Assembly: GCA_025774935.1 (NCBI GenBank)
Contig: JALGZK010000001.1
Location: 212,266 to 276,265, forward strand
Source: a bacterium
GTDB lineage: Bacteria > Joyebacterota > Joyebacteria > Joyebacterales > Joyebacteraceae
Direction: 5' to 3'
Length of the DNA stretch: 64,000 nucleotides
Below are positions 4,683-44,742 of this stretch, in pieces. Below the pieces are notes generated by a model that worked only from the letters and a program-made list of their open reading frames with translations, ran no database searches and had not been told where the DNA came from. Numbering within the stretch: the stretch's first letter is position 1; each line of letters starts with the position of its first letter. The translations under genes and the position numbers were made by a program.

Positions 4683-5570
4683 ATGTTGAGGAAGCTCATC
4701 ACGACGATGCGTCCCGATCAGTGGACGAAGAACCTCGTCCTCTTCGCCGGCCTCGTCTTCGCCGGCGGGATCGGCGACCCCGCGCTCGTGAGGCTCGCGG
4801 TCCAGGGGTTCTTCGTCTTCTGCCTCCTCTCGAGCGCGAGCTACATCCTGAACGACCTCATCGACGTGCAGCGCGACCGGGAGCATCCGGAGAAGAAGAA
4901 GAGACCGCTCGCCTCGGGTGAGCTCTCGGTCGGGGTGGCGGCGACCGCCGCCTCCGTGATGGCGCTGGCGGCGCTCTTCTGGGCCTTCCGGCTCTACCCC
5001 GTCTTCGCGCACGCCGCTGCCGCGTACCTGGCGCTCAACATCCTCTACAGCGTAGCGCTCAGGAGGATGGTCATCCTCGACGTGATGGCCATCGCGATCG
5101 GGTTCGTCCTCCGAGCGGTCGGGAGCGTGGAGGTCCTCCGGGGGGCGGCGCCCGGCACCGAGCTGTCGCCGTGGCTCCTCGTCTGTACCTTCTTCCTCGC
5201 GCTCTTCCTGGGACTCGGCAAGAGGCGTCACGAGGTGATGCTCCTCGGCGAGGCAGCCGCCGCGCACCGCCCGGCGCTTCGCGCCTACCCGCCGATGCTC
5301 GTGGACTCGTTCATCGGGGTCGTCACGGCCTCGACCGTGGTGTCGTACGCGATCTACGCCATCTGGCCGGGTACCGTCGAGAAGGTCGGAAGCGCGAACC
5401 TCGTCTACACCGTGCCGTTCGTCGTGTACGGAGTGCTCAGGTATCTCTACCTCATCTACACGACGCCCGCGGGCGGCGGGAAGCCGTCCCGCGCCTTGGT
5501 GACGGACGCGCCTCTGGCGATCAACATCCTGCTCTGGGTCGTAGCAGTCGTGGCAGTGATCTACACATGA
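4683..5570 (+). CDS. UbiA-family prenyltransferase, decaprenyl-phosphate phosphoribosyltransferase-like
   Basis: 295-residue polytopic membrane protein with about eight or nine predicted helices. The first Asp-rich motif is NDLIDVQRD (57-65), followed by HPEKKKRPLASGE. The opening RPDQWTKNLVLFAG and the later FLGLGKRRHE match the 5-phosphoribosyl-1-diphosphate : decaprenyl-phosphate phosphoribosyltransferase branch (Rv3806c-like) better than quinone-type UbiA enzymes or digeranylgeranylglyceryl-phosphate synthase. If so, it makes polyprenyl-phosphoryl-5-phosphoribose, precursor of a ribose or arabinose donor. No DprE1/DprE2 partner is visible. Substrate assignment is by motif only. Confidence 0.75.
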   Translation: MLRKLITTMRPDQWTKNLVLFAGLVFAGGIGDPALVRLAVQGFFVFCLLSSASYILNDLIDVQRDREHPEKKKRPLASGELSVGVAATAASVMALAALFWAFRLYPVFAHAAAAYLALNILYSVALRRMVILDVMAIAIGFVLRAVGSVEVLRGAAPGTELSPWLLVCTFFLALFLGLGKRRHEVMLLGEAAAAHRPALRAYPPMLVDSFIGVVTASTVVSYAIYAIWPGTVEKVGSANLVYTVPFVVYGVLRYLYLIYTTPAGGGKPSRALVTDAPLAINILLWVVAVVAVIYT

Positions 5571-29981: not shown

Positions 29982-30434
29982 ATGGGTGTGAGACGGGAGG
30001 GGCGGGAGCTAGCCGTCAAACTTCTCTACCGCGAGGAGGTTACGGGGCTCACCGATCTCGCGATCCCCGGAATCGAGGAGGAGCGGGAGGAGGCCCTCGT
30101 CTTCGCCGGGCGCATAGTGGACGGAGTTAGGGAGCGCCTCGAGGCCATCGACGGCGCGATCTCCGAAGCGAGCGAGCACTGGGACATCTCGCGCATGGGC
30201 GCAGTCGACAGGACGGTGCTCCGGATCGGCGCGTACGAACTGCTGTTCGCTCCCCGGATCCCGATCGGGGTCGTCATCAACGAGGCGGTCGACTGCGCGA
30301 GGAAGTTCAGCTCCGACGAGTGCGGACGCTTCGTGAACGGCGTCCTCGACCACATCGCGAAACTCGTCAGGCCGTCTGAGAAGGAGCAGGCCGAGCCCGC
30401 CGAGGAAGAGACGGAGGAAGAACCGACTTCGTGA
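29982..30434 (+). CDS. nusB: Transcription antitermination factor NusB
   Basis: 150-residue all-helical RNA-binding factor that acts with NusE/S10 in rRNA antitermination. It has RREGRELAVKLLYREEV at the N-terminus and the conserved DRTVLRIGAYELLF and IPIGVVINEAVDCARKFSSDECGRFVNGVLD. The ribH-nusB order is widespread. The C-terminal 20 residues are a Glu-rich tail. Its stop overlaps the GTG of the next gene by 4 bases. Confidence 0.95.
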   Translation: MGVRREGRELAVKLLYREEVTGLTDLAIPGIEEEREEALVFAGRIVDGVRERLEAIDGAISEASEHWDISRMGAVDRTVLRIGAYELLFAPRIPIGVVINEAVDCARKFSSDECGRFVNGVLDHIAKLVRPSEKEQAEPAEEETEEEPTS

Positions 30435-31156
30435 GATACGTCGTCCTGAGCGACATCCACGCAAACCTCGAAGCGCTCGAGGCAGTGTTCGAGGAGATCG
30501 AGAGCATTGAGCACGATGCCGTCGTCTGTCTCGGCGACGTCGTCGGCTACGGTCCCGACCCGGGACCGGTGGTCGAGCTCGTCCGCGAGCGCTCTGCGGT
30601 GACCGTGCGCGGCAACCACGACAACGCAGCCGTCGACCCGCGCGAGGAGGCCTTCTTCAACGACTGGGCGGCCGCGGCGATCCGCTGGACTCGCGAGCAC
30701 CTGTCCGACAGCCAGCAGGCCTACCTCGGCGGGCTGCCGTACACCGCATCGCTCGGAAGCGCACTCCTCGTCCACTCGTCGCCGAGCAGGCCGGAGGCGT
30801 GGCGGTACGTCCTGGGCAGACCGGACGCGATCTCCGAGTTCGACGCCTTCGACGAGCGGATCTGCCTGATCGGGCACTCGCACGTACCGATGATGGTCGC
30901 GAAGCTCGAGGAGCGAGTGTGGGAGCTCGTTTTGAGCGAGGTCTTCGTCACGCCCGGCATGAGGCTCATCGCGAACGTCGGGAGCGTGGGGCAACCGCGC
31001 GACCGCGACGTGCGAGCGAGCTTCGCGGTCCTCGACCTCGACGAAGGAACCGTCGCCATTCGACGCGTCGCGTATAACGCGGAGAAGACCGCCGAGAAGA
31101 TCATCGACGCCGGCCTGCCGAAGTTCCTCGGCGAGCGCCTGCTGGTCGGCCAGTAG
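30431..31156 (+). CDS. Calcineurin-like metallophosphoesterase (YfcE/MJ0936-like)
   Basis: 241-residue two-metal phosphoesterase. Metal-binding motifs are in order: SDIHANLEALEAVF (D-x-H), CLGDVVGYGPDP (G-D), VRGNHDNAA (G-N-H-D), HSSPSRPE, and GHSHVP (G-H-x-H). The length and the NHDNAAVDPREEAFFNDWA stretch fit the small soluble branch that hydrolyses phosphodiesters or nucleotides; the physiological substrate is unknown. GTG at 30431 overlaps nusB. It ends the housekeeping operon. Confidence 0.85.
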   Translation: MRYVVLSDIHANLEALEAVFEEIESIEHDAVVCLGDVVGYGPDPGPVVELVRERSAVTVRGNHDNAAVDPREEAFFNDWAAAAIRWTREHLSDSQQAYLGGLPYTASLGSALLVHSSPSRPEAWRYVLGRPDAISEFDAFDERICLIGHSHVPMMVAKLEERVWELVLSEVFVTPGMRLIANVGSVGQPRDRDVRASFAVLDLDEGTVAIRRVAYNAEKTAEKIIDAGLPKFLGERLLVGQ

Positions 31157-31218: not shown

Positions 31219-32172
31219 ATGTTGACCGCGAGCGTCGGAGTGATGGCCTACAACGAGGAGCGCAACATCGGGAAGCTCCTCGAGGCGCTCGTGTGCCAGA
31301 ACCTCACGAACGTCGAGCTGCGCCAGATCTTCGTCGTCTCGTCAGGCTCGACCGACCGCACGGACGCGATCGCCGCCGACTGGGCGTCGCGCGAGCCCCG
31401 GATCGAGCTCATCCGCCAGGAGAGCAGAGAGGGGAAGGCCTCGGCCATCAACCTCTTCCTCGAGCGCGCGGATGCGGACGTCTTCGTACTCGAGAGCGGA
31501 GACACGCTCCCGGCGCCAGACTGCGTCGAGGAGCTCCTGGCGCCGTTCGCCGATTCCGAGGTGGGCATGACGGGCGCGAGGCCGGTTCCGGTGGACGACC
31601 CCGGCACCTTCATGGGGTTTGTCGTCCACATGCTCTGGAGGCTCCACCACTGCCTGGCGCTCAGGACCCCGAAGCTCGGGGAGATGGTGGCGTTCCGGTC
31701 GTTCGTACGGGCGATTCCAGTCAACACGGCGGTCGACGAGGCGAGCATCGAGGCGATCGTGATCGACCGGGGACAGGAACTCAGGTACGCGCCCGACGCG
31801 ATCGTCTACAACAAGGGCCCCGACAGCGTCCGTGACTTCCTCAAGCAGCGCCGGAGAATCTACGCGGGGCACCTCTGGCTCGAGAAGGAGCAGTCGTACG
31901 AGGTCTCCACGAAGAAGGTCGGCGGCATCTTCCGCGTCCTCCTCGACGACCTCGAATGGAAGCCCAGGACGGTCCTCTGGACGGTGGGCGGGATCTTCCT
32001 CGAGACCGTCGGACGGTTCCTCGGAGTAGTCGACTACCGCGTCCTCAAGAAGAACCCGTACACCTGGGACGTGGCGGAGTCCACGAAGGACCTCGATGCC
32101 GCTCCGGAGGGCGGCGGAGCGGGTCGACCGACGAACGCCGGCCGCGGCCCCGCGGCCGGAGGTGCGGGATGA
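31219..32172 (+). CDS. Glycosyltransferase family 2
   Basis: 317-residue GT2-like enzyme. It opens ASVGVMAYNEERNIGKLLEAL and has FVVSSGSTDRTDAIA, where the family usually has VDDGS-type sequence. The position of the metal-binding DxD reads LESGDTLP, so metal binding may differ. The downstream acidic residue and the QRRRIYAGHLWLEK helix resemble the Q/RxxRW motif of processive GT2 enzymes. The last 35 residues are a Gly/Pro/Ala-rich tail; one amphipathic or membrane helix precedes it (WTVGGIFLETVGRFLG). First gene of a tightly packed set with the radical SAM and DUF362 genes. Sugar unknown. Confidence 0.8.
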   Translation: MLTASVGVMAYNEERNIGKLLEALVCQNLTNVELRQIFVVSSGSTDRTDAIAADWASREPRIELIRQESREGKASAINLFLERADADVFVLESGDTLPAPDCVEELLAPFADSEVGMTGARPVPVDDPGTFMGFVVHMLWRLHHCLALRTPKLGEMVAFRSFVRAIPVNTAVDEASIEAIVIDRGQELRYAPDAIVYNKGPDSVRDFLKQRRRIYAGHLWLEKEQSYEVSTKKVGGIFRVLLDDLEWKPRTVLWTVGGIFLETVGRFLGVVDYRVLKKNPYTWDVAESTKDLDAAPEGGGAGRPTNAGRGPAAGGAG

Positions 32173-33299
32173 TCGAGGTGCTCGCGAGGATCCCCTTCTA
32201 CAAGCTCATGTACTCGACGGGGTGGCCCCGCGTCCTGCCGCTCAACCTCACGGTGAGCGTCACCTACCGCTGCAACTCGCGTTGCCGGACGTGCAACGTG
32301 TACACGAAGGACGCGGAGGAGTTCACGGTCGAGGAGTTCGACCGCACGTTCGCGTCGCTCGGACGCGCTCCCTACTGGTACACGATGAGCGGGGGCGAGC
32401 CGTTCCTGAGATCGGACCTGCCGGACATCTGCGAGAGCGCATACCGCCACGGGGCGCCCGGGATCATAAACATCCCCACGAACGGGCTTCTGCCGGACAG
32501 GATCCCCGAAGCTGTCCGCGACATCGCGACGCGCTGCCCGAAGAGCCAGATCATCATCAACCTCTCGATCGACGAGATCGGGGACGCCCACGACGCCATC
32601 CGCGGCGTCGAGGGCAGCTTCGAGCGTGCGCTCGAGAGCTACCGAGGCCTCCGGGACCTCCGCCTGCCGAACCTGACCGTCGGGGTGCACACGGTCATCT
32701 CCGTCTACAACGTGGATCGCATCCCCGACGTCTACGAGTACGTCACGCGTGAGCTCGAGCCCGACTCCTTCATCACCGAGATCGCCGAGGAACGGGTCGA
32801 GCTCGAAACGCTCGGAGCCGGGATCACGCCCGACGCGGCTTCGTACGCGAAGGCGGTCGACTACCTGATCGAGAGGATCAAGGAGGCCGATTACTCGGGG
32901 ATCTCGCAGGTCACGCAGGCGTTCCGCATACGCTACTACGAGCTCGTGAAGCGCTACATGCGCTCGGGGCGTCAGGAGATCCCCTGCTACGCAGGTGTCG
33001 CGTCGGCGCAGATCGCCCCGGACGGCGACGTCTGGTTCTGCTGCGTGAAGGCCGAGCCCGTCGGGAACCTCCGCGAGGCGGACTACGACTTCGCGACGGT
33101 GTGGTTCGGGGAGAAGGCCCGAGAGGAGAGGCGGAGGGTGCGAAACGGCGAGTGCGCGTGCCCTCTCGCGAACGCGGGCTACACGAACATGCTCATGCAC
33201 GTCCGCACCGTTGAGGGCGTGGCCACCGAGGTCGCGGCCGGGCGCGTGGGACACGGACGGACGGGTTCCCGCGAGAGCGAACGCGAAGGGGAGCGCTAG
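32169..33299 (+). CDS. Radical SAM protein with SPASM-like C-terminus
   Basis: 376 residues. The [4Fe-4S]/SAM motif CNSRCRTC (C-x3-C-x2-C, about 37-44) follows NLTVSVTYR, and the SAM-contacting MSGGEPFLR comes about 35 residues later. The C-terminal third has Cys residues in IPCYAG, WFCCVKAEPVGNLREADY and GECACPLANAGY, an arrangement like SPASM/twitch auxiliary-cluster domains. Start ATG at 32169 overlaps the GT2 stop (ATGA). Products of this class modify peptides, sugars or lipids; in this context a sugar or lipid substrate is likelier, but this is inference. Highly charged Arg/Glu/Gly tail at the C-terminus. Confidence 0.85.
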   Translation: MIEVLARIPFYKLMYSTGWPRVLPLNLTVSVTYRCNSRCRTCNVYTKDAEEFTVEEFDRTFASLGRAPYWYTMSGGEPFLRSDLPDICESAYRHGAPGIINIPTNGLLPDRIPEAVRDIATRCPKSQIIINLSIDEIGDAHDAIRGVEGSFERALESYRGLRDLRLPNLTVGVHTVISVYNVDRIPDVYEYVTRELEPDSFITEIAEERVELETLGAGITPDAASYAKAVDYLIERIKEADYSGISQVTQAFRIRYYELVKRYMRSGRQEIPCYAGVASAQIAPDGDVWFCCVKAEPVGNLREADYDFATVWFGEKAREERRRVRNGECACPLANAGYTNMLMHVRTVEGVATEVAAGRVGHGRTGSRESEREGER

Positions 33300-34439
33300 G
33301 TGGCGGTCTATCTCGACGAGATCCGCGGCTACCGCGTCGCCGACATCGAGGCCTCGATCGAACGCGCGATCGAGGCGCTGTCGATCGACCTCGCGTCGGT
33401 CCGCACGGCCCTCGTGAAGCCGAACCTCGTGATCGCCGCCCTTCCGAAGACGGGAGTCGTGACGCATCCCGACGTCGTGGAGGCCATCGTCTCAGTGCTC
33501 CGGAAGCGAGGCTGCGAGCGGATCGTGCTGGCCGACGGTCCGGGCGTCGGACTCGACGTCGAGGAGGTCTTCCGGAAGAGCGGGTACGCAGCGCTCGCGT
33601 CGCGGCTCGGAGTCGAACTCCTGAACTTCAACACGGCGGAGCGTCGCGAGCGGGAGTGGAAGTACGGCAAGCTCGGAGTGCCAGCGGTGCTCGAGGACGC
33701 TGACCTCTACGTCAACGTGCCGAAGCTCAAGACCCACGGCTACACGACCCTGACGCTCTCCATCAAGAACCACAAGGGCATGCTCTCGGAGGAAGACAAG
33801 AAGCTCGACCACCACCTGGGACTCCACGAGCCGCTCGTGGAGCAGGCGAAGCTGAGGCCTCCCGACCTCATCGTGCTCGACGGGATCGTTGGAGTCGAGA
33901 AGGACGGACCGCTGAACGGGAAGGCCAAGCGCGCCGGCATCTTCGCCATCGGGACGAACATGCTCGAGGTCGACGCGACGGCAGCGAGACACGCGGGATT
34001 CGACCCGCGCGACATCGAGCACCTCGCGATCGCGGAGCGCGAGGGCATCGGGACGATGGACCCCGAGGTCCTCGGAGACGCGCCGCTGGTCAGGTTCATG
34101 CCTGCCAACGAGGACTACGGGCAGGTAATGAACATCTACTCGTGGCGCGACTGCACGGCCTGCTCGATGTGCATCGACTCGTTCAGCGCGGGCGTCAAGC
34201 TCGCGGTCCGGGACCCCCGGTACTGGTTCACGCTCGTGCCGAAGCTCGTCTACTGGGGCTTCTTCGGGAAGCTCCACATCATCCAGGGACGCGAGGCGAA
34301 GGTCCCGGACGCCGAAGGGCGCGTCATCTGCCTCGGGAAGTGCACGAGGGACCTCGCGGAGAGCGAGGGCCTGATCCACTTCCCGGGATGCCCCCCGTCG
34401 GCGAGAGACGTCGCGGAGACCATGCGGAGGAAGCTCTAG
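33300..34439 (+). CDS. DUF362 domain protein
   Basis: 379 residues. DUF362 marks: VKPNLVIAALPKTGVVTHPDVVEAIVSVL near the N-terminus, the NVPKLKTHGYTTLTLSIKNHKGML core (about 138-161), DLIVLDGIVGVEKDGPLNGKAK, and ATAARHAGFDP. The C-terminal part has a partial Cys pair group CTACSMC and CLGKCTRDLAE ... FPGCPPSARD, which may hold an Fe-S cluster but is not a full ferredoxin pattern. DUF362 proteins are of unknown function. GTG start at 33300 directly after the radical SAM stop, suggesting joint function with it. Confidence 0.82.
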   Translation: MAVYLDEIRGYRVADIEASIERAIEALSIDLASVRTALVKPNLVIAALPKTGVVTHPDVVEAIVSVLRKRGCERIVLADGPGVGLDVEEVFRKSGYAALASRLGVELLNFNTAERREREWKYGKLGVPAVLEDADLYVNVPKLKTHGYTTLTLSIKNHKGMLSEEDKKLDHHLGLHEPLVEQAKLRPPDLIVLDGIVGVEKDGPLNGKAKRAGIFAIGTNMLEVDATAARHAGFDPRDIEHLAIAEREGIGTMDPEVLGDAPLVRFMPANEDYGQVMNIYSWRDCTACSMCIDSFSAGVKLAVRDPRYWFTLVPKLVYWGFFGKLHIIQGREAKVPDAEGRVICLGKCTRDLAESEGLIHFPGCPPSARDVAETMRRKL

Positions 34440-34443
34440 CGCT

Positions 34444-35307
34444 ATGGCTGCCACCGAGAAGGACACCGGACTCGGAACGACATACGAGAGGATCGCGGTC
34501 GCGCGTCTCCTCGAGCGCTTCGCCGAGCACCACCCGATCCGGAACGTGCTCGAGGGGCCGACCGACGGGATCACGGGGATCAGGGGACTCAACAGCGTCC
34601 CGCTCGCGCAGGGCGGAGCACGGGTCGAGCTCGTCCTCGGGGACCCGGACGAGGTCACGATCGCGCGCCGCGTGTGGCGAGAGCTCGGACTCGCCGACCA
34701 GGTCACGGTGCGGCACTCCCGTGACGGGCGCCTCGACGTGCCGCCGCGTTCGTTCGACCTCGTGTGGAACTTCAACTCGCTGCCCCAGGCCGCGGACCCC
34801 GAGGCCATTCTGAGCGAGATGTGTGACGCGAGCGCGAGGTTCGTCCTCGTCTTCGTCGGGAACACCATGAATTACGGCTACCCGATCCACAGACTCCATC
34901 ACCGGGCCGCGCGCGAGGAGTGGAGCCACGGCGACGTCGAGATGATGAACCCACGACTCATCGAGAAGATGCTCGCGGAGCGCGGGTTCCGGGCCAGGGA
35001 GAGACTCCTCGTTGACACGCCGTGGTGGCCCGACATCGACTCTCCGATCGAGGAGGTCGCTGCGACCTTCCTGCCGTTCCTCAGGAGGTTCGCGAGCGGC
35101 TCGAAGCGGCTCCAGCACTACACGTGGACGCCCGAGGACCTCCCGTACTTCGACCCCGACCGGCGCAGGAAGCTCGAGGCCGAGCTCGGGAAGCACTTCG
35201 CCATCGAGAACGCCGAGCGCTTCCCCTTCAGGGTCCTGTTCGCCCACCACCGCGGGATCCTGACCGAGAGGGAGGACGCGACGACTCCAGGAGGAGGGAC
35301 CGCTTGA
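34444..35307 (+). CDS. Methyltransferase-like protein (class I fold, degenerate motif I)
   Basis: 287 residues. The layout is that of a class I SAM methyltransferase: NVLEGPTDGITGI where motif I (VLDxGxGxG) should be, ARVELVLGDPDEVTIARRV as motif II, and SFDLVWNFNSLPQAADPEAILSEM followed by RFVLVFVGN as motifs IV and V. The glycine pattern of motif I is incomplete, so either SAM binding is modified or this is a pseudo-enzyme. Four bases after DUF362 and overlapping the next gene by 4 bases. Substrate unknown. Confidence 0.65.
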   Translation: MAATEKDTGLGTTYERIAVARLLERFAEHHPIRNVLEGPTDGITGIRGLNSVPLAQGGARVELVLGDPDEVTIARRVWRELGLADQVTVRHSRDGRLDVPPRSFDLVWNFNSLPQAADPEAILSEMCDASARFVLVFVGNTMNYGYPIHRLHHRAAREEWSHGDVEMMNPRLIEKMLAERGFRARERLLVDTPWWPDIDSPIEEVAATFLPFLRRFASGSKRLQHYTWTPEDLPYFDPDRRRKLEAELGKHFAIENAERFPFRVLFAHHRGILTEREDATTPGGGTA

Positions 35308-36338
35308 GCCGGGGCTCCAAGATCGCGCTCGCCACCGTTGCCGGAATAGTGCTCCTCGCGATCGCTCTGTACGGGGTCGACGTCGGGCGCGTCCGCGAGC
35401 TCATCGCGCACGTCAACGCACCGTGGCTCGCGCTCGCTGCCGTCCTCTACGTCTCGGCCTATCTCGTCAGGAGCCTCCGGTGGAGGCTCGTCCTGAGGCC
35501 GGTGCAGAGGGTGCGCGTCTCGGAGAGCTTCTTCATGCTCATGGCGGGCTACTTCCTGAACTACATCATCCCGATCAGGGCGGGCGAGGTCGCCAAGTCG
35601 TTCTTCCTGAAGCGGCTGCGCGGCGTCCCGATCGCGACGAGCCTCCCGACGATCTTCGTCGACAAGCTCCTCGAGCTCCTGTCGATCGTGCTCGTCGTGC
35701 TCCTCATCCCGGTCCTTTCGATCGAGCTGAACGGCTACCTGGGGACGCTCATCGTCACGGTGCTCGTCGTCTTCGCCATTGCGCTCGCCCTCCTCGTCAT
35801 GGCCATCTGGAGGGAGCGGGCGACCGCGCGGGTCCTGACGGCAGCCGTCTCCTGGCTCCCGGCCCGCGTCTCCTCGCGTCTGAGCGCGTGGCTCGAGCTC
35901 TTCGTCGGCGGGATGGGCGTCGCCCGACAGAACGCGAGGACGCTGGCGCCGCTCGTAGGATACACGGCCTTCGCGGTGCTTCTGGACGCCCTCTACTTCT
36001 CCTGCGTGTTCAGGGCCTTCTCCATGGATGTCCCTTTCGTGATGGTGCTTTTCGGGTATACTCTCATATCCTTGTCCTACATCCTCCCGACGCCACCCGC
36101 CCAGATCGGGCACAACGAGGCGGTGATGGTGCTCATCTTCGCCGTCGGGTTCGGGCTCGGCAGGGACGAGGTGACGGCGGTCATGATCCTCGCGCACCTC
36201 ATGACCGGGCTCATCGTGACCGGCATCGGGCTCTGGTCGTTCGGCGCGATGAGCATCAAGGTCAGCGAGAGCTTCAGGCACGTGGCGGAGGCTGCCGGGT
36301 CCGACTCACCGGACGCTGCCGCCGGAAGAGGAGGATGA
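35304..36338 (+). CDS. Lysylphosphatidylglycerol synthase / UPF0104-type membrane protein
   Basis: 344-residue polytopic membrane protein with about eight helices, of the LPG_synthase_TM (AglD, YbhN) family. Family marks: YLVRSLRWRLVLRPV, the MLMAGYFLNYIIPIRAGEVAKSFFLKR block and IFVDKLLELLSIV, and the late ILPTPPAQIGHNEAVMVLI. In glycan loci these are thought to flip or transfer lipid-linked substrates. TTG at 35304 follows GGAGGAGGG and overlaps the upstream stop; longer frames upstream have no support. It closes the five-gene module starting at 31219. Confidence 0.83.
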   Translation: MSRGSKIALATVAGIVLLAIALYGVDVGRVRELIAHVNAPWLALAAVLYVSAYLVRSLRWRLVLRPVQRVRVSESFFMLMAGYFLNYIIPIRAGEVAKSFFLKRLRGVPIATSLPTIFVDKLLELLSIVLVVLLIPVLSIELNGYLGTLIVTVLVVFAIALALLVMAIWRERATARVLTAAVSWLPARVSSRLSAWLELFVGGMGVARQNARTLAPLVGYTAFAVLLDALYFSCVFRAFSMDVPFVMVLFGYTLISLSYILPTPPAQIGHNEAVMVLIFAVGFGLGRDEVTAVMILAHLMTGLIVTGIGLWSFGAMSIKVSESFRHVAEAAGSDSPDAAAGRGG

Positions 36339-37297
36339 TGGGCGGCGCAGGGGACGGGAAGATCCTCGTGACGGGAGCGGCCGGGTTCATCGGCTCGCAC
36401 GTCTCGGAACGACTGACGCGGGACGGGCGCTCCGTGAGGGGCGTCGACTCGTTCACGGACTACTACCCGCGGAAGCTGAAGGAACAGAACCTCGCCGGCC
36501 TCGAGGGAAGCGCTGGTTTCGAGCTCGTCGAGGCCGATCTGGCGACGTGCGACCTCGGCCCGCTCATGGAAGGCGTCTCGTCGGTCTGCCACCTCGCGGC
36601 GCAGGCCGGAGTCCGCGCGAGCTGGGGCGAGAGCTTCTCGATCTATCTCGACTGCAACGTCCGCTCGACGCAGAGGCTTCTCGAGGTGGCGCAGGGGACG
36701 GGTCTCGACAGGTTCGTCTACGCGTCCTCATCGTCGGTCTACGGGCAGACCGACGACCTCCCGATGCGTGAGGAGGGGCGGACGTGCCCGGTGTCGCCGT
36801 ACGGTGTGACGAAGCTCGCGGGCGAGCACCTCGCCGTTCTCTACCACAGGAACTACGGGGTGCCGACGGTCTCGCTACGCTACTTCACCGTGTACGGGCC
36901 GAGACAGCGCCCTGACATGGCGTTCCACCGGTTCATCCGCGCGGGGCTCGAGGGCAGTCCGGTGGCAATCCTCGGCGACGGCGCGCAGACGCGCGACTTC
37001 ACGTACGTCGACGACGTCGTGGAGGCAACCGTGCGCGCGCTCGAGGACGGGCCGGAGGGCGAGGTCCTGAACGTGGGCGGAGGGAGTCGCGTTGCCTTGA
37101 GCGAAGCGATCGACCTCATCGAGTCGACCGTGGGGCGCCCGATCGAGCGGCACCACGAGAACCCGGCGCGGGGCGACGTAACCGACACCCTCGCGGACAA
37201 CCGGAAGGCGCGCGACCTCCTCGGGTTCTCTCCGAGCGTCACCCTCGAGGAAGGCATCGCGCGCGAGTGCGAATGGCTGCGGAGCGTCTCGTTCTGA
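36335..37297 (+). CDS. NAD-dependent nucleotide-sugar epimerase/dehydratase
   Basis: 320-residue extended short-chain dehydrogenase. VTGAAGFIGSHVSERL is the dinucleotide loop, and SFTDYYPRKLKEQNLAGL is typical of UDP-glucuronate 4-epimerase or related enzymes. Further on are HLAAQAGVRASW, the SSSSVYGQ strand, catalytic YGVTK (Y-x3-K), RYFTVYGPRQRPDMA and FTYVDDVVEA. A UDP-hexose or UDP-hexuronate 4-epimerase is the best guess. The ATG at 36335 overlaps the upstream stop; an ATG one codon later is equally possible. Confidence 0.85.
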   Translation: MMGGAGDGKILVTGAAGFIGSHVSERLTRDGRSVRGVDSFTDYYPRKLKEQNLAGLEGSAGFELVEADLATCDLGPLMEGVSSVCHLAAQAGVRASWGESFSIYLDCNVRSTQRLLEVAQGTGLDRFVYASSSSVYGQTDDLPMREEGRTCPVSPYGVTKLAGEHLAVLYHRNYGVPTVSLRYFTVYGPRQRPDMAFHRFIRAGLEGSPVAILGDGAQTRDFTYVDDVVEATVRALEDGPEGEVLNVGGGSRVALSEAIDLIESTVGRPIERHHENPARGDVTDTLADNRKARDLLGFSPSVTLEEGIARECEWLRSVSF

Positions 37298-37346: not shown

Positions 37347-38294
37347 ATGGACGTCTCGATACTCATCCCGCTCCTGAACGAGGAAGAGAGCCTGCGCGAG
37401 CTCTATCGGAGGATCTCCGCTGCGATGGAGCCGCTGGGTAAGCAGTGGGAGGTCGTCTTCGTGAACGACGGGAGCACGGACGGCTCGATGGACGTCCTGA
37501 GGGAGCTCTACGAGGCCCACGGGAACGTCAAGGTGCTCGCGTTCGGCAGGAACCTCGGGAAGTCGGCCGCGCTCGCCGTCGGGTTCCGCGAGGTCCAGGG
37601 AGAGGCCGTCGTGACGATGGACGCGGACCTCCAGGACGACCCCTCCGAGATCCCGAAGATGCTCGACCTCCTGAACGAGGGCTGCGACCTCGTCAGCGGG
37701 TGGAAGAAAGAGAGGCAGGACCCGCTCTCGAAGCGCCTCCCGTCGAGGATCTTCAACGGCGTGGCCGGGAGGCTCTCCGGGATCAGGCTGCACGACATGA
37801 ACTGCGGTCTCAAGGTCTACAGGCGGCTCGTCGTGAAGACCATCAAGGTGTACGGCGAGCTGCATCGATACACGCCGGCCCTCGCACACTGGGCGGGATT
37901 CACGGTGACGGAGGTCCCGGTGAAGCACCACCCGCGCGAGCACGGCACGTCCAAGTTCGGTGCGGAACGCTTCATGCGGGGGTTCTTCGACCTTCTGACG
38001 GTGCTCTTCCTCCGGCGGTACGCGACCCGACCGCTTCACCTCTTCGGGATGCTCGGCGGCATCCTGTTCGCGGGTGGACTCGGCATCGGGATCTACCTCA
38101 CGATCGTCAAGATCATGGGCGGCGCGATCGGCCGGAGGCCGCTTCTGACCCTCGGGATCCTCCTCATGGTCGTCGGAGTCCAGTTCGTCTCCTTCGGCCT
38201 CATCGGAGAGATGCTCGCGTACCTCCGGAGCGAGGACGTGAGCTACCCCGTCCGGGAGCGGCTGGCCAGGGACGGAGGCGAGGGTGGCGGCTGA
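37347..38294 (+). CDS. Polyprenyl-phosphate glycosyltransferase, GtrB/DPM type GT2
   Basis: 315 residues. GT2 catalytic domain about 1-220 with SILIPLLNEEESLRELY, VFVNDGSTDGSMDVL, NLGKSAALAVGFREV and the DxD motif MDADLQDDPSEIP. Two C-terminal transmembrane helices (about 232-255 and 268-290) mark the GtrB / DPM1-like group that moves a sugar from a nucleotide to polyprenyl phosphate. The product would feed a membrane glycosyltransferase such as the YfhO or GT87 proteins in this island. It overlaps the next gene by 11 bases. Confidence 0.87.
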   Translation: MDVSILIPLLNEEESLRELYRRISAAMEPLGKQWEVVFVNDGSTDGSMDVLRELYEAHGNVKVLAFGRNLGKSAALAVGFREVQGEAVVTMDADLQDDPSEIPKMLDLLNEGCDLVSGWKKERQDPLSKRLPSRIFNGVAGRLSGIRLHDMNCGLKVYRRLVVKTIKVYGELHRYTPALAHWAGFTVTEVPVKHHPREHGTSKFGAERFMRGFFDLLTVLFLRRYATRPLHLFGMLGGILFAGGLGIGIYLTIVKIMGGAIGRRPLLTLGILLMVVGVQFVSFGLIGEMLAYLRSEDVSYPVRERLARDGGEGGG

Positions 38295-39486
38295 TCTCGA
38301 GCGAAGCGTCGCGTCCGACTCGTCGTTCGACGGGGGCGCGGGCTCAAGGATCGCGATCGTCGGCCCGGCCTATCCGCTCAGGGGCGGCAACGCGCTCTTC
38401 GTCGCCCACCTCTACGACAACCTCCGGGTCGACCACGACTGCTACGTGGTGTCGTTCACGAGGCTCTACCCGTCACTCCTGTTCCCGGGGAAGACGCAGG
38501 CCAACGTCAGCCGCGACCCCGTGAAGAGCACGCCTTCCCGGCAGCTGATCGACTCCATAGACCCGCTGAGCTGGTGGAGGGCCGTCGACTGGATCTCGCA
38601 GCCGGCGCGACGCCCCGATCTCGTCATCTTCGTCTGGTACAATCCGTTCTTCGGGATGTGCTACGGCTCGATGGCGCGCCTCCTCAAGAAGCGGATCGGC
38701 TGCGGCATCGTCTTCGTCTGCGAGAACGTCGTCTCCCACGAGAACCGGTTCGTCGACAAGTACCTGACGAGGTTCGCGCTCTCGCAGGCCGACTACTTCA
38801 TGGTCCTCTCGGGCGTCGTGCGCAGGCGCATCCAGGCCCTCTACCCGGGCATGCCCCTCAGACAGGCCGCGCTTCCCATCTACGACTGCTACCGCGCGAG
38901 CGACTTCGACCGCGACGCCGCAAGGAGAAGACTCGGCCTCAGGCGGCCGACGATCCTCTTCTTCGGGTACGTGAGAGCCTACAAGGGGCTCGAGCACCTG
39001 CTTCGGGCGATGCCGTCGGTGCTCCGGAGCGTGGAGGTGGATCTTCTCATCGTCGGCGAGTTCTACGACGACCGCGCGAAGTACGACCGCATCATCGCCG
39101 ACCTAGGCATCGGCAAGCGGGTCAAGATCGTCGCGGAGCACGTCCCCGACGAGACGGTGGGGGAGTACTTCACGGCCTCGGACGTGGTGGTCCTCCCGTA
39201 CGTCTCTGCCACCCAGAGCGGCATCACGCAGGTGGCCTTCGCGTTCGGGCTGCCGGTCATCAGCACGCGCGTGGGGGGGCTCCCGGAGGTAGTCACGGAC
39301 GGGGCGACCGGCTACATTGTGCCCCCGCGCGACGAGGGCGCCCTCGCCGACGCCATCGTCAGGTACTTCGAGGAGGGCCGGAAGGAGAGCTTCAGCGCGA
39401 ACGTCGAAACGGAGGCGAGCCGCGACCGCGCGGGCGAGCTCATGCGGCGGGCCGTGCGGGACTTCCTCGAGATGGAGAGGTCCTAG
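38284..39486 (+). CDS. Glycosyltransferase family 4 (GT-B fold)
   Basis: 400 residues. N-terminal Rossmann domain: IAIVGPAYPLRGGNALFVAHLY with the Gly-rich loop. C-terminal donor domain: PTILFFGYVRAYKGLEHLLRAM, VKIVAEHVPDETVGEYFTASDVVVLPY and GITQVAFAFGLPVISTRVGGLPEVV. The E-x7-E motif is partly replaced (ATQSGITQ), as in some active GT4 enzymes. Retaining nucleotide-sugar transferase; donor and acceptor unknown. GTG start at 38284. Confidence 0.85.
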   Translation: MAADLERSVASDSSFDGGAGSRIAIVGPAYPLRGGNALFVAHLYDNLRVDHDCYVVSFTRLYPSLLFPGKTQANVSRDPVKSTPSRQLIDSIDPLSWWRAVDWISQPARRPDLVIFVWYNPFFGMCYGSMARLLKKRIGCGIVFVCENVVSHENRFVDKYLTRFALSQADYFMVLSGVVRRRIQALYPGMPLRQAALPIYDCYRASDFDRDAARRRLGLRRPTILFFGYVRAYKGLEHLLRAMPSVLRSVEVDLLIVGEFYDDRAKYDRIIADLGIGKRVKIVAEHVPDETVGEYFTASDVVVLPYVSATQSGITQVAFAFGLPVISTRVGGLPEVVTDGATGYIVPPRDEGALADAIVRYFEEGRKESFSANVETEASRDRAGELMRRAVRDFLEMERS

Positions 39487-40389
39487 GTGGACGCTCCGAA
39501 GGTGACTGCGATCGTGGTCAATTGGAACGGGCGCGAGCTCCTGGAGGCCGCGCTGCGCTCGCTTCAGGAGTCCGATTACGGGCGTCTCGCGATCCTGGTC
39601 GTCGACAACGCGTCGGAGGACGGGTCGCAGGACCTCGTCCATGAGTCGTTCCCGGACGTCGGCCTCGTCGAGAACGAGACGAACGAGGGGTACGCAGCCG
39701 GCGCGAACGCCGGGATCCGCGTGGCCATGGCGGACGGCGCCGACTACGTGTTCCTCATGAACAACGACCTCGTGGTCGCTCCGGACGCGGTCTCCGCGCT
39801 CGTGGCGGCGGCGAGCGAGCGGCCAGACGCCGCGTTCGTCGGCCCGATGATCTACTACCACGAGCCGCCGAACCTCATCTGGTCGCTTGGGGGGGCTGTC
39901 TCGTACTGGAGCGGGAACATCAGGCACCACGCGATCCGCGAGAAGGACGACGGGCGGTACATCGAGGCGCGCGAGGTCGACTACGTGACCGGGGCGGCGG
40001 TCCTCGCGTCGGCCGCGGCTCTCGCGAGGATCGGCCTCATGGACGAGGAATACTACATGTACAACGAGGACACCGACTGGTGTGCCCGCGCCGCGCTCCT
40101 CGGCTACGGGGTCATCGTGGAGCCGCGCGCGAAGGCGTGGCACCGCGTGTCGATGAGCTCCGGAGGGGGGCTCACGCCATACAAGATCTACCACAGGCTC
40201 AGGAGTACCTACAGGTTCTTCGGGCTCTACGCGAAGCCGTACCACTGGCTCGGAATCGTGCCGGCGACGATCGTTCGTTCCGTCGTCTTCACGCTCGGTC
40301 AGCTCCTGAGCGGCAAGCCGTCCAACGCCGCCGCGGTCGCTCGGGGGACCTTCGACATCGCCGCGGCGAGGAAGCGGAAGGAGACATGA
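39487..40389 (+). CDS. Glycosyltransferase family 2, rhamnosyltransferase-like (WbbL type)
   Basis: 300 residues. VTAIVVNWNGRELLEAALRSL, VVDNASEDGS and NEGYAAGANAGIR are typical of WbbL/RfbF rhamnosyltransferases; the metal motif is MNNDLVV, and MYNEDTDWCARAALLGY with the terminal WHRVS completes the active site. A rhamnose donor fits the rmlA-like and rmlD genes at the left of the window. GTG start one base after the previous stop. A short amphipathic C-terminal region may associate with the membrane. Confidence 0.85.
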   Translation: MDAPKVTAIVVNWNGRELLEAALRSLQESDYGRLAILVVDNASEDGSQDLVHESFPDVGLVENETNEGYAAGANAGIRVAMADGADYVFLMNNDLVVAPDAVSALVAAASERPDAAFVGPMIYYHEPPNLIWSLGGAVSYWSGNIRHHAIREKDDGRYIEAREVDYVTGAAVLASAAALARIGLMDEEYYMYNEDTDWCARAALLGYGVIVEPRAKAWHRVSMSSGGGLTPYKIYHRLRSTYRFFGLYAKPYHWLGIVPATIVRSVVFTLGQLLSGKPSNAAAVARGTFDIAAARKRKET

Positions 40390-41804
40390 TGAGGCGAAGA
40401 TGTCAGGCTGCAGTACCGACGTACCGGCGTGCCCGGGCTTCGCGGTCCGGCCTGCGACGTGCGATCGCGGCAGTCGTGATCCTGTCGCTCGTTCCCGTCG
40501 CGGGGTGCGGGAACAGGGAGGAGGCGCCGGTCGCCCCGAAGCTCCTCGTCTTCGGTCTCGACGCGGCCACGTGGAACGTCATCACGCCGATGATCCAGTC
40601 CGGCGAGCTTCCCAACATCGCCAGGCTCGCCCGCGAGGGTTCGTTCGGGAACCTCCTGAGCCACCCGCCCGTGCAGTCGCCCCCGATGTGGACGACGATC
40701 GCAACCGGGTTCATGCCTGAGGTGCACGGGATCGACGGGTTCACCGCACCGCTCGAGGGGAGCGATCGCGAGGTGCCGGTGACGAGCAACATGCGAAGGG
40801 TCAAGGCGTTCTGGAACATCCTGTCCGAGAACGAGACGTCGGTGGGCGTCGTCGGGTGGTGGCCGAGCTGGCCGGCCGAGGAGGTCGACGGGTTCATGGT
40901 CGCGCAGCGCGCGTGGCCGATGAACTGGAGCAGGAACGGCATCCCGTTCGGGGCGACGCGCGACTCGAACGGAGAGCTCGTCGTTCAGGACTTCCCGGGA
41001 CGGACGTATCCCGAGTCGCTCTACGAACAGCTCGAGCAGTTCATCGTGACCGAGGAGGACATCACCGCCGCGGAGCTCGGCAGGTTCTTCGCCGACTCGG
41101 GCTTCACCGACCCCTCCAGGGAGTTCCACGCCCGATGGGTCTACGCCAAGGACCGCACGTTCACGGACGCGGGCCTCTGGCTCGTCGAGCGCTACCGCCC
41201 CGACGTCTTTGCCATCTTCTTGCACGGCCCGGACGTCACCGCCCACTACTACTGGGGCTATCAGACGGGCGAGGGGTTCGAGGTAGACGAGGCTGAGGCG
41301 CGGATGTACGGCGGGGTGGTCAGGAACTACTACCGGTTCGTCGACGAGGTGATCGGGAGGTTCGTCGCGATCGCGCCCCCTGACGCCGCGGTGCTCGTCG
41401 TCTCGGACCACGGGTTCGAGACGGTCCGCGAGCTGGTCGAGCCGTGGAAGCAGGGGGAGGAGATCCGGACCGAGATCGGGGGCAAGGACGTGCCCTGGGA
41501 TCACTCGCTCGAGGGCGTCTACATCATGCGCGGGCCAGGGATCCGGGCGGGATACCGCGGCCCCGACGCCGCGGTCGAGGACGTGACGCCGACGCTGCTC
41601 GCATACCTCGGGATCCCGGTCGGCGAGGACATGGCAGGAAGGCCCATCGAGGCGGTCTTCGAGCCCGACGAGCTTGCCGCCCGTCCGGTGCAGTACGTGG
41701 CGACTCACGAGACAGGCGGCCCGCGGGGCGACGAGACGCCCCTCGAGTCCCCTGTCGACGAAGGCATCAAGGAGAAGCTCCGCTCGCTGGGCTACATCGA
41801 GTAG
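40386..41804 (+). CDS. Alkaline-phosphatase-superfamily lipoprotein (type I phosphodiesterase-like)
   Basis: 472 residues, predicted lipoprotein: hydrophobic segment about 24-36 and lipobox VAGC. The catalytic domain opens KLLVFGLDAATWNVITPM, with the metal Asp and the nucleophile region HPPVQSPPMWTTIATG; the second metal site is LVVSDHGFE and a third His lies in PWDHSLEGVYIMRGPG. This is the AP/nucleotide-pyrophosphatase fold, working on phosphomonoesters, phosphodiesters or as a phosphotransferase. It ends KLRSLGYIE, the same tail as the protein at 42943. Substrate unknown; in a glycan island, removal or transfer of a phosphate-linked decoration is plausible. Confidence 0.8.
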   Translation: MMRRRCQAAVPTYRRARASRSGLRRAIAAVVILSLVPVAGCGNREEAPVAPKLLVFGLDAATWNVITPMIQSGELPNIARLAREGSFGNLLSHPPVQSPPMWTTIATGFMPEVHGIDGFTAPLEGSDREVPVTSNMRRVKAFWNILSENETSVGVVGWWPSWPAEEVDGFMVAQRAWPMNWSRNGIPFGATRDSNGELVVQDFPGRTYPESLYEQLEQFIVTEEDITAAELGRFFADSGFTDPSREFHARWVYAKDRTFTDAGLWLVERYRPDVFAIFLHGPDVTAHYYWGYQTGEGFEVDEAEARMYGGVVRNYYRFVDEVIGRFVAIAPPDAAVLVVSDHGFETVRELVEPWKQGEEIRTEIGGKDVPWDHSLEGVYIMRGPGIRAGYRGPDAAVEDVTPTLLAYLGIPVGEDMAGRPIEAVFEPDELAARPVQYVATHETGGPRGDETPLESPVDEGIKEKLRSLGYIE

Positions 41805-41839: not shown

Positions 41840-42946
41840 ATGCCGAGCGTGGTGAAGTTCGACTGCAGGTTCTACCTTGGCGACAGGCCGTGCCGGTTCC
41901 GGCGGGCCTGCGAGGGATGCGAGGACTACTCGCCGATGGGCACGCGCATCCTCGTGGTCAAGCTCGCGGCCGCCGGAGACGTGCTCCGGACGACGGCGGT
42001 CCTCCCTCCGCTCAAGCGGAAGTACCCGGACTCGCACATCACGTGGGTCACCGACGAGTCCGCCGTTCCGCTCCTCGAGCACAACCCGTACGTCGACGTT
42101 CTGATTCCGTACGGAGTCGACGCGTCGCTCGTGCTGCCGGTGCAGACGTTCGACGTCGCGATCGGCCTGGACAAGGAACCCCGGGCCTGCGCGCTCGTGT
42201 CGACCGTCGTCGCCACGGAGAAACTCGGGTTCGGGCTCTCGACGTGGGGAACGACGGAGCCTCTGAACGAGGGCGCGTGGTACGACCTCGAACTCGGCCT
42301 CTCGGACGAGAAGAAGTTCCACGTGAACGACAGGACCTATGCGGAGATCGCGTGCGGCGTCGCCGAGGTCGACTACGAGGGCGACCCGTACATGCTGGTC
42401 CTGCCGCCGGCCTCGATCGAGCACGCGAACGCCTTCGCCGAGAAGCTGAACCCGGCCGGGCCGCTCGTAGGTCTGAACGCGGGAGCGGGTCGTGTCTTCG
42501 CGAACAAGGCCTGGACCACTCCCGGGTACGGGGAGCTCGCGGGGAAGATCGCCGGCGACCTCGGAGGAACGCCGCTCGTCCTCTCGGGACGCGACGACCG
42601 GGGGAGGGCCGAGGAGATCCTCAGGCTCGCGGGTGGGCCGGCCGTCGACGCGGGGCTGCACGAGCTCCTCGACTTCGCGGCGATCGTCGGCACCCTCGAC
42701 GCGCTCGTGACGGGCGACACGCTCGCGATGCACATCGCCGTTGCGCTCGGAGTTCCCGTCGTCGCGATCTTCGGACCGACCGTCCCGCAGGAGATCGAGC
42801 TCTACGGAGGAGGCCGCAAGGTCGTCACCTCGATCGACTGCGCGCCCTGCTACCGACGGGAGTGCGACATCACGCCGACGTGCATGGACGAGATCACCAC
42901 GGCCGACGTCTTCGCGGCCCTCGAACAGGTGCTGGAGGAATCTTGA
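41840..42946 (+). CDS. Glycosyltransferase family 9, heptosyltransferase-like, with N-terminal Cys motif
   Basis: 368 residues. The GT9 part starts at RILVVKLAAAGDVLRTTAVLPPL (about 34-56), with PLVGLNAGAGRVFANKAWT, GDTLAMHIAVALGVPVVAIFGPT and the family's C-terminal SIDCAPCYRRECDITPTCM. Before it, residues 9-27 carry C9, C18, C24 and C27 (spacing C-x8-C-x5-C-x2-C), which could bind Zn or a cluster. Heptose transfer fits the GmhA-like gene at 3379, but other GT9 donors are known. It lies between two AP-superfamily genes; its stop overlaps the next TTG start. Confidence 0.82.
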   Translation: MPSVVKFDCRFYLGDRPCRFRRACEGCEDYSPMGTRILVVKLAAAGDVLRTTAVLPPLKRKYPDSHITWVTDESAVPLLEHNPYVDVLIPYGVDASLVLPVQTFDVAIGLDKEPRACALVSTVVATEKLGFGLSTWGTTEPLNEGAWYDLELGLSDEKKFHVNDRTYAEIACGVAEVDYEGDPYMLVLPPASIEHANAFAEKLNPAGPLVGLNAGAGRVFANKAWTTPGYGELAGKIAGDLGGTPLVLSGRDDRGRAEEILRLAGGPAVDAGLHELLDFAAIVGTLDALVTGDTLAMHIAVALGVPVVAIFGPTVPQEIELYGGGRKVVTSIDCAPCYRRECDITPTCMDEITTADVFAALEQVLEES

Positions 42947-44742
42947 CGGGACGTTCACAGGTCGGACCGAACGGCGCCGGGCGCCCGCCAGGCGCCATCG
43001 CCGCGCTCCTCAGGACGGCGGTCGCGTTCGCGCTTCTCGTCGGCGCGTACCTCGGGGTCGCGGGCGTCGCGACGAGCAACTTCGCAATCTCGATGTCTCC
43101 CAGCCAGCTCTTCCCGGTCGCGGGCCTCGCGTTCCTCGTTTATCTGGGCGCCGGCGCGCTCGTCGCGGGCGCGAACGCCCTGGGGCGGAAGGCCCGCTCT
43201 GACACCGCGAGACTGGAACGCCGCCTCGTGCACGTGATGGCAGCCGTGACCCTGTGGGCCGTGCTCGCCGTCATGTTCCTGCCGCTCAAGGGAACCGAGG
43301 CGTCGGTCCAGGCCGGGAAGCTCACGACTCTGCAGCTGAACGCCCTGGCCGCCGCTGCGATCGTGGTCGCCGGCCTGGTGGGAGGGTGGATCGTAGCGGT
43401 CGTCGTCGGTCGGGTCGTCGCGCTCCTCCGGCGCAGGCTGACGCCGGGCGGCACCAGGGCGCTCGGGGCCGCCGGCGCCGCGGTGTGCGTGGTCCTCCTC
43501 GCGGTCGGTCCGGCCCTCACGGCCCGAGACCTCTCAAGGCTGCCGCTTCCGGAGGACCTGACTCCCGGGAAACTGCCGCGAGTGGTGCTCGTGGCCGTCG
43601 ACGGCTGCGAGTGGAGCGTGCTTGGACCCCTCATGGAGTCGGGAGAGCTCCCGACCTTCAAGCGCCTCGCAGACGGCGGCTCCTTCGGGCCTCTGCGCAC
43701 GATCGAGCCGATTCTCTCTCCGATCATCTGGACGAGCATGGCCACCGGGAAGCTGCCCGACAAACACGGCATCCACGGGTTCGTGAACGAACAGAACGTG
43801 CCGGTGAACTCCAGGATGCGCCTGGCGTCCCCGGTGTGGGACATCGTGTCCGGCCACGGCGAGGAGGTCTGTGTGGTAGGCTGGTACGTCACGTGGCCCG
43901 CCGACCGCGTGAACGGGGTCCTCGTCTCGGACAGGTTGCACTCGCTCCTCCGCGGACCCCTGCAGATGTACCAGTCGCTCACCGGCCGACCGACGAACGA
44001 ACGACTCGAGGCGTTCGGCGAGTTCGTGTTCGATCCGGGCTACAAGCGCTACCCTAAGGAAGAGGAGCGCTTCCAGCTGAACAGGATCGTCGACGAGCCG
44101 CTCAGGTGGGGCTACCTTCGCGACAGGATCTACGGGAAGGCGGCGACATCACTGGGCCCGTACTACGAGCCCGCGTTCACGGCGGTCTACTACCGCGGCG
44201 TGGACTTCGTGCAGCACTTCTTCTGGAAGTTCCACGACCCGAACCCGTTCGGGGAGGTTGAAGAGCAGCGCATCCGGGAGTACGGCGACGTAATCCGGAG
44301 CTACTACCGCTACCAGGACGCCCTGCTCGCGCAGCTCCTCGACTCGCTCGGCGAGGACCTGAACGTCGTGATCGTCTCCGACCACGGGTTCACGTCACGC
44401 CACGAGCACCCCGACCCCGGGAGGCCGCAGCTCACCGGCGAACACCGCATCGACGGAGTCATCATCGCCTCGGGGCCGGCGTTCCGCGAGGCCGGGTACT
44501 TCGAGGGGGCGACGGTGCTCGACATCGCCCCGACTGCCCTCGCCGTGATGGGGCTCCCGGTCCCCGAGGACATGGACGGCCGGGTGCTCGAGGAGACGAT
44601 CAGCGACGAACACCTCGAACAGCATCCGGTGACGACGATTCCCTCGTACGAACCCGCGATCGGTCGGGAGGGTGCTGAAGTCGGCTCCACGATGGACGAG
44701 TCGATCAGGGAACAGCTCAGGTCTCTCGGGTATATCGAGTAG
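42943..44742 (+). CDS. Integral-membrane alkaline-phosphatase-superfamily protein
   Basis: 599 residues. About five transmembrane helices in the first 205 residues anchor a periplasmic AP-superfamily domain (from about 218). Catalytic features: RVVLVAVDGCEWSVLGPLM, the nucleophile region ILSPIIWTSMATG, NVVIVSDHGFTSRHEH and LTGEHRIDGVIIASGP. It ends QLRSLGYIE, matching the lipoprotein at 40386. TTG at 42943 has GGAGG upstream and overlaps the GT9 stop. The arrangement recalls membrane phosphoethanolamine or phosphoglycerol transferases, but the catalytic loop differs and the donor is unknown. Confidence 0.78.
   Translation: MTGRSQVGPNGAGRPPGAIAALLRTAVAFALLVGAYLGVAGVATSNFAISMSPSQLFPVAGLAFLVYLGAGALVAGANALGRKARSDTARLERRLVHVMAAVTLWAVLAVMFLPLKGTEASVQAGKLTTLQLNALAAAAIVVAGLVGGWIVAVVVGRVVALLRRRLTPGGTRALGAAGAAVCVVLLAVGPALTARDLSRLPLPEDLTPGKLPRVVLVAVDGCEWSVLGPLMESGELPTFKRLADGGSFGPLRTIEPILSPIIWTSMATGKLPDKHGIHGFVNEQNVPVNSRMRLASPVWDIVSGHGEEVCVVGWYVTWPADRVNGVLVSDRLHSLLRGPLQMYQSLTGRPTNERLEAFGEFVFDPGYKRYPKEEERFQLNRIVDEPLRWGYLRDRIYGKAATSLGPYYEPAFTAVYYRGVDFVQHFFWKFHDPNPFGEVEEQRIREYGDVIRSYYRYQDALLAQLLDSLGEDLNVVIVSDHGFTSRHEHPDPGRPQLTGEHRIDGVIIASGPAFREAGYFEGATVLDIAPTALAVMGLPVPEDMDGRVLEETISDEHLEQHPVTTIPSYEPAIGREGAEVGSTMDESIREQLRSLGYIE

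Follow-up and report, generated by a model that had tools for sequence, protein, structure and literature searches.

Among the closest described systems to the locus analysed here are the polyprenyl-phosphate sugar pathways, which combine an ArnC/DPM1-type glycosyltransferase with a GT-C transferase and a flippase. The locus lies in a 64,000-nucleotide stretch of DNA from a member of the family Joyebacteraceae, phylum Joyebacterota (contig JALGZK010000001.1; the whole stretch is termed the window), in which five plus-strand genes at positions 31219-36338 encode a family 2 glycosyltransferase (GT2a), a radical S-adenosylmethionine (SAM) enzyme (rSAM), a DUF362 protein, a class I methyltransferase-like protein (MT) and a flippase-like membrane protein. 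DPM1/ArnC-like family 2 (GT2) enzymes, GT-C enzymes and PF03706 proteins are likewise found in or near these clusters; however, we know of no polyprenyl-phosphate sugar pathway with a radical SAM enzyme, a DUF362 protein or a methyltransferase of this family. Individual members of the set recall other systems. BlsE, the cytosylglucuronate decarboxylase (TIGR04466), has a sugar acid as its substrate, is a radical SAM enzyme with an auxiliary cluster and is the best match of the rSAM profile in the Protein Data Bank (PDB), although this match is confined to the SAM core (35 bits) and the equivalog cut-off is not reached; the rSAM homolog at locus L134 also matches TIGR04466, weakly. RebM and AtmM are the top Foldseek matches of MT, and AtmM is its only PDB sequence match (E 2.4e-4), yet identity is 15-20% and MT is distinguished by a variant motif I and by the motifs DxGLGTxYER and AHH. 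The hopanoid genes share with these loci the grouping of an epimerase (HpnA), a glycosyltransferase and a radical SAM enzyme (HpnH), there acting on a polycyclic isoprenoid, and the best NCBIfam match of the epimerase at locus L120 is HpnA (82.3 bits); however, all such matches fall far below the equivalog cut-offs. Finally, DUF362 resembles the LarA superfamily of nickel-pincer nucleotide racemases/epimerases in its fold, its Pfam clan and three residues (H146, K156 and H171), while differing from it by the absence of a counterpart to His108 and by an extra C-terminal four-Cys domain.

GT2a, rSAM and MT constitute a co-inherited core, which DUF362 and the flippase-like protein join in some lineages only, and this core probably performs one old step in the building of a lipid-linked envelope sugar. 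We used alignments of MT, rSAM, GT2a and DUF362 to search a sample of 386 genomes, of which 366 lie outside the family of the window, with presence defined as E <= 1e-20 for MT and >= 340 bits for rSAM, score thresholds that were picked after the hits had been seen. Outside the family, MT and GT2a were each detected in 13 genomes and rSAM in 14. MT occurred together with GT2a in 12 genomes (Fisher p = 1.7e-20) and with rSAM in 12 (1.2e-19), as did rSAM with GT2a (12 genomes, 1.2e-19), these tests treating genomes as independent, which they are not. Relaxing the rSAM threshold to 178 bits gave 28 rSAM genomes, 13 of them with MT (p = 1.4e-16). The MT matches span nine families (f74, f86, f98, f105, f130, f141, f197, f247 and f251), and in several genomes (G362, G159 and G373) the three genes lie far apart or on separate contigs; since the core genes are often unlinked, their co-occurrence is not explained by adjacency alone. 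The first-pass annotation of this DNA had named co-occurrence of the five families in other genomes as a test, and GT2a, rSAM and MT do occur together (Fisher p < 1e-18), DUF362 and the flippase joining them in some lineages only. The candidacy of DUF362 as an obligate partner was rejected, as no more than 3 of the 13 MT-bearing genomes outside the family have a strong-scoring module-type protein (p = 7e-4); a weaker-scoring DUF362 copy adjoins the module in both f86 genomes.

The core is also conserved in position. In the phylum of genome G159, probably Cloacimonadota, GT2a was found in 59 of 59 genomes and 30 of 30 genera, and the order ribH-nusB-GT2a-rSAM was observed at ten loci from nine families, with one further family displaying nusB-GT2a-rSAM and another nusB-GT2a. 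The window has this same order save for a metallophosphatase gene, absent between nusB and GT2a in the phylum of G159. That two phyla have this gene order in common suggests that the arrangement is ancient and was inherited vertically. MT is common rather than universal in the phylum of G362 (19 of 40 genomes). The phylum of the window is represented in the sample by one family of 20 genomes, all of which carry MT. Fourteen other metagenome-assembled genomes (MAGs) of this family with sufficiently long contigs keep the order nusB-metallophosphatase-GT2a-rSAM-DUF362-MT-flippase-epimerase-GT2b-GT4-GT2c-phosphodiesterase-GT9-phosphodiesterase, two MAGs with shorter contigs show the same block as far as their contigs extend, and ribH precedes nusB wherever the family stretch reaches that far. 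Identity between the block proteins of these MAGs and their window counterparts is only 62-93%, and the kept order is thus not a matter of trivial closeness.

Inspection of the open reading frames and their boundaries confirmed the tight packing that had been noted for the five genes, with spacings of -4, 0, +4 and -4 bases. Conversely, the end of the module had been placed too early, at 36338: the last 4 bases of the flippase gene also belong to an epimerase gene, and conservation extends as far as 44742, so that the operon continues beyond the flippase with the epimerase, an ArnC/DPM1-like GT2, a GT4, a further GT2, a phosphodiesterase, a GT9 and a second phosphodiesterase. The genes of the block are as follows.

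30431-31156, plus strand: metallophosphatase (open reading frame), between nusB and GT2a, at the upstream end of the conserved block; syntenic in the family.
31219-32172, plus strand: GT2a, family 2 glycosyltransferase with ESGD for DxD (PF00535, 82.6 bits against a cut-off of 23.3); core gene.
32169-33299, plus strand: rSAM, radical SAM enzyme with a SPASM/twitch-like C-terminal domain (PF04055, 59.6 against 29.5 bits; PF13186 (SPASM), 28.9 against 21.5 bits); core gene.
33300-34439, plus strand: DUF362 protein, LarA-like fold with a C-terminal four-Cys domain (PF04015, 154.9 bits against a cut-off of 24); lineage-specific partner.
34444-35307, plus strand: MT, class I methyltransferase-like protein with a variant motif I (Methyltransf_11, 20.3 bits, just below the cut-off of 21.2); core gene.
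35304-36338, plus strand, TTG start: flippase-like membrane protein (PF03706, 160.1 bits against 33.4; TIGR00374, 113.3 bits against 43.2).
36335-37297, plus strand, ATG at 36335: NAD-dependent sugar epimerase/dehydratase (PF01370, 199.5 bits).
37347-38294, plus strand: GT2b, ArnC/DPM1-like polyprenyl-phosphate glycosyltransferase (NF007986, 197.8 bits, below the cut-off of 529), with two hydrophobic C-terminal segments.
38284-39486, plus strand: GT4 glycosyltransferase (PF13692, PF00534); syntenic in the family.
39487-40389, plus strand: GT2c, rhamnosyltransferase-like GT2 (PF00535, 74.7 bits); syntenic in the family.
40386-41804, plus strand: type I phosphodiesterase (PF01663, 102.6 bits); syntenic in the family.
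41840-42946, plus strand: GT9 with a four-Cys N-terminal extension (PF01075, 57.8 bits).
42943-44742, plus strand: membrane-anchored type I phosphodiesterase (PF01663, 96.9 bits), with five hydrophobic segments; syntenic.

Hydropathy analysis indicated several hydrophobic segments in the flippase-like protein, whose role is read from sequence only, the PF03706/TIGR00374 family name not being proof of flippase activity. Scans of the locus for promoters and terminators returned no more matches than expected by chance. The extension of the GT9 enzyme has the form DCxxxxGDRPCxxxxxCxxC, its four Cys being invariant in all aligned family members, and may constitute a glycosyltransferase metal site; a similar Cys extension is carried by the GT9 that lies beside GT2a-rSAM-MT at locus L122.

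Each core protein retains features of its superfamily together with deviations that are themselves conserved. GT2a has no predicted transmembrane helix and, as the first-pass annotation had read it, carries SGD (here ESGD) at the usual position of the DxD motif; within ESGD, D95 alone does not vary between phyla. Many further hallmarks of GT2 enzymes are retained, for instance D173-E174 and an RRRI-GH motif. Similarly, the CX3CX2C motif and the additional C-terminal cysteines that had been described for rSAM are indeed present, C273, C291, C292, C329 and C331 being invariant with the motif in 19 sequences from many families. As five invariant C-terminal Cys are enough for one auxiliary cluster, the domain is likelier to be a twitch-like half-SPASM. 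When compared with named NCBIfam equivalogs (ScmE, BlsE, HpnH, MftC and others), rSAM scored at best 69 bits against a cut-off of 400 (ScmE), and its homolog at L134 likewise reached no equivalog cut-off; a match to a family of known unrelated function, which could have overturned the initial proposal, was thus not obtained. In the case of MT, the homolog at L127 passes the Methyltransf_11 cut-off (27.8 bits). The SAM loop of MT, previously termed degenerate, is non-canonical, having LExPxxGxTGxxG in place of GxGxG at motif I, but this is a conserved variant rather than decay, and it is accompanied by a conserved N-terminal DxGLGTxYER and a C-terminal AHH. The AF2 model of MT (pLDDT 87) has a class I fold; Foldseek returned 818 matches at E <= 1e-3, of which the 50 listed are all class I methyltransferase structures (SpnF, a cyclase that shares the fold, being counted among them), and the top matches are the sugar O-methyltransferases RebM and AtmM, with TM-scores near 0.5.

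The DUF362 protein had been credited with a partial Cys cluster; instead, a full set of four Cys (C288, C291, C348 and C364) is conserved in 94% of 33 sequences. Its AF2 model (pLDDT 93) gave 15 Foldseek matches at E <= 1e-3, with E-values down to 6e-8 and TM-scores of about 0.4, all of which are LarA-family or LarA-like structures (one, entry 4nar, being named only as Q9WYS3). In a local hhalign comparison of 33 DUF362 with 28 LarA sequences (P = 2e-4), H146, K156 and H171 (conservation 0.97, 1.00 and 1.00 among the DUF362 sequences) align with LarA His174, the cofactor lysine and the nickel-ligand histidine. Alignments with few sequences gave the same register at unconvincing significance (P = 0.033 and 0.16), and global mode gave a meaningless alignment. 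DUF362 and LarA are placed in the same Pfam clan (PMC11770544), and the roles of the LarA catalytic residues have been described (PMC12611868). No conserved histidine precedes H146 in DUF362 at the place of the first catalytic histidine of LarA (His108; H109 of L148, invariant in 28 LarA rows). Additionally, larC (PF01969) was not found in several DUF362-bearing genomes (G000, G003, G006, G007 and G013), that of the window included, and was present in other DUF362 carriers. DUF362 was consequently rejected as a true nickel-pincer LarA, given the missing catalytic histidine and the failure to find larC in several genomes, complete ones among them. Little weight attaches to the absence of larC, since a LarA homolog (PF09861) is encoded in G000, G003, G006 and G007, a situation that reflects either assembly gaps or LarA homologs lacking the usual cofactor route. 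The H-x9-K-x14-H pattern also occurs, with slightly varying spacing, in DUF362 paralogs of the same genome (L031, L032 and L034), and the LarA-like H/K/H alignment may therefore apply to DUF362 as a whole.

The surroundings of the core in other lineages point to the product. A DPM1-like GT2 is fused to GT2a at L120, L125 and L129 and lies within the same 20 kb region at L123, L124 and L130, as in the window, while GT-C genes adjoin the module at L120 (PMT_2) and L124 (TMEM260-like, next to MT). It is this combination of the DPM1-GT2a fusion, polyprenyl-phosphate-sugar synthases and GT-C neighbours that suggests a lipid-linked envelope sugar. Moreover, the enzymes identified in the window block are all sugar enzymes, an epimerase adjoins MT also at L120, L125, L127, L129, L131 and L170-L172, and recurrent companions include a CpsB-like phosphatase and a GT9 whose N terminus is rich in Cys, GT9 genes lying beside GT2a-rSAM-MT at both L122 and L123. 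In the mechanism that we propose, GT2a, as a soluble or peripheral enzyme, would load a sugar onto a carrier in the membrane, the most probable carrier being polyprenyl phosphate or a glycan borne on it; rSAM would carry out a radical step on that sugar, likeliest an oxidation, epimerisation or decarboxylation; and MT would O-methylate the sugar loaded by GT2a. In the phylum of the window, DUF362, with its LarA-like fold and iron-sulfur domain, may contribute an additional reaction, either redox or epimerising, and the PF03706 protein may assist transfer of the product to the other side of the membrane, the remaining transferases and phosphodiesterases of the operon presumably finishing the envelope glycan. 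That the locus is a conserved, unnamed envelope-glycan module of this kind is a reasonable though tentative reading, to which we give somewhat less than even credence. Several observations weigh against it: DUF362 and the flippase do not lie beside the core in most lineages, a flippase gene adjoining MT only in the phylum of the window and at the G159/G296 loci; the PDB match of rSAM to a sugar enzyme is weak and the fold matches of MT are modest, at the scores given above; and some loci carry prenyl synthase, UbiA and geranylgeranyl reductase genes near those of the module, so that a lipid rather than a sugar could be the substrate modified.

Radical SAM enzymes are known to act on hopanoids and archaeal tetraethers, and it is conceivable, if unlikely, that the isoprenoid lipid is itself the target, GT2a glycosylating a (poly)prenyl lipid, rSAM altering its chain and MT capping the head group. 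A geranylgeranyl reductase family gene, above cut-off, adjoins the rSAM gene at L137, a farnesyl/geranylgeranyl diphosphate synthase and UbiA lie near GT2a at L120, and a digeranylgeranylglycerophospholipid-reductase-like gene lies near GT2a at L141. The window also encodes a PcrB/geranylgeranylglyceryl phosphate (GGGP) synthase homolog (616-1374; PF01884, 136 bits) and a decaprenyl-phosphate phosphoribosyltransferase, and the Cloacimonadota-type rSAM weakly matches HpnH (53.8 bits against a cut-off of 225). However, isoprenoid genes are not adjacent in most loci, the enzymes recognised in the window block act on sugars, and an archaeal-type lipid link was rejected, as GGGP synthase is not enriched with the module (6 of 13 module genomes against 15 of 56; one-sided p = 0.15). 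As to the phosphoribosyltransferase itself (4683-5570), its score of 265 bits exceeds the equivalog cut-off of 234, and the lineage may thus make a polyprenyl-phosphate pentose.

Where the function of SPASM proteins is known, it is mostly the maturation of peptides, and rSAM might accordingly modify a peptide or protein that GT2a glycosylates and MT methylates, as in mycofactocin or ribosomally synthesised and post-translationally modified peptide systems. Weak NCBIfam matches, to peptide maturases and in the case of GT2a to MftF, and the identity of the gene adjoining MT at L124, a TMEM260-like protein O-mannosyltransferase, would agree with this, yet no match comes near an equivalog cut-off and the packed window genes leave no space for a precursor gene (a target encoded elsewhere being possible), which makes such a maturation role quite improbable. 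It appears more improbable still that the locus is an ordinary surface-polysaccharide cluster whose accessory enzymes are unrelated and came to be packed together by chance. All members do belong to large superfamilies common in lipopolysaccharide and capsule clusters; however, O-antigen-type genes usually differ between strains, whereas this set is kept throughout the phylum of the window, all 59 genomes sampled from the phylum of G159 carry GT2a, and co-occurrence of the three core families is significant at p < 1e-18, with the genes often at separate loci. Chance packing is thereby contradicted for the core, while for DUF362 and the flippase it could hold.

The statement that no named pathway contains this set has stood up, and a named family for the core proteins was rejected, none of them reaching the cut-off of a named NCBIfam equivalog. 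No paper was found that joins DUF362, a radical SAM enzyme and a glycosyltransferase, nor one on radical SAM enzymes in connection with COG2006, or on a radical SAM enzyme together with a glycosyltransferase in Cloacimonas acidaminovorans, subscription papers lying outside the search, and this is weak evidence of novelty. What is new is the combination and its universality; the superfamily of each enzyme and the resemblance to lipid-linked glycan pathways were already known. The presence of GT2a in all sampled genomes of a phylum, in fixed order beside ribH/nusB, and its co-inheritance with rSAM and MT across several phyla, would be in keeping with a basic but as yet unnamed role in the envelope. 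Were the proposed module confirmed, radical SAM chemistry would count among the housekeeping reactions of glycan or lipid synthesis. A bolder version, which we consider rather doubtful, is that of an undescribed core envelope pathway, shared by all the sampled genomes of one phylum or more, whereby a twitch rSAM, joined in some lineages by a LarA-like iron-sulfur DUF362 with its own metal/nucleotide cofactor, makes a new methylated sugar from a GT2-loaded lipid-linked sugar. For DUF362, a widespread domain, the LarA-like H/K/H residues and iron-sulfur domain provide a testable active-site hypothesis, and as complete genomes are in the set, recombinant enzymes would make both this active site and the envelope role directly testable.

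Further genes were observed in the vicinity of the module members. The rSAM of G053 (L052), 41% identical to that of the window, was considered as a second module and rejected, having no GT2a or MT nearby. Within the ribH-nusB-GT2a-rSAM arrangement, genes of 440-494 aa follow rSAM at L134 (10233-11606), L162, L163, L165, L166, L168 and L169, the L134 copy having no Pfam match. In two unrelated bacterial families, B12-binding radical SAM genes adjoin DUF362, at L123 (6144-7589) and L126 (1425-2942), with similar B12-binding radical SAM-like genes recognised by eye only at L128 and L144; such an enzyme is a possible second partner of DUF362. Additionally, a second radical SAM/SPASM gene lies next to MT in family f130 (L122, 8675-9742; L123, 8672-9739), its best NCBIfam match being a tungsten oxidoreductase maturase model, below cut-off.

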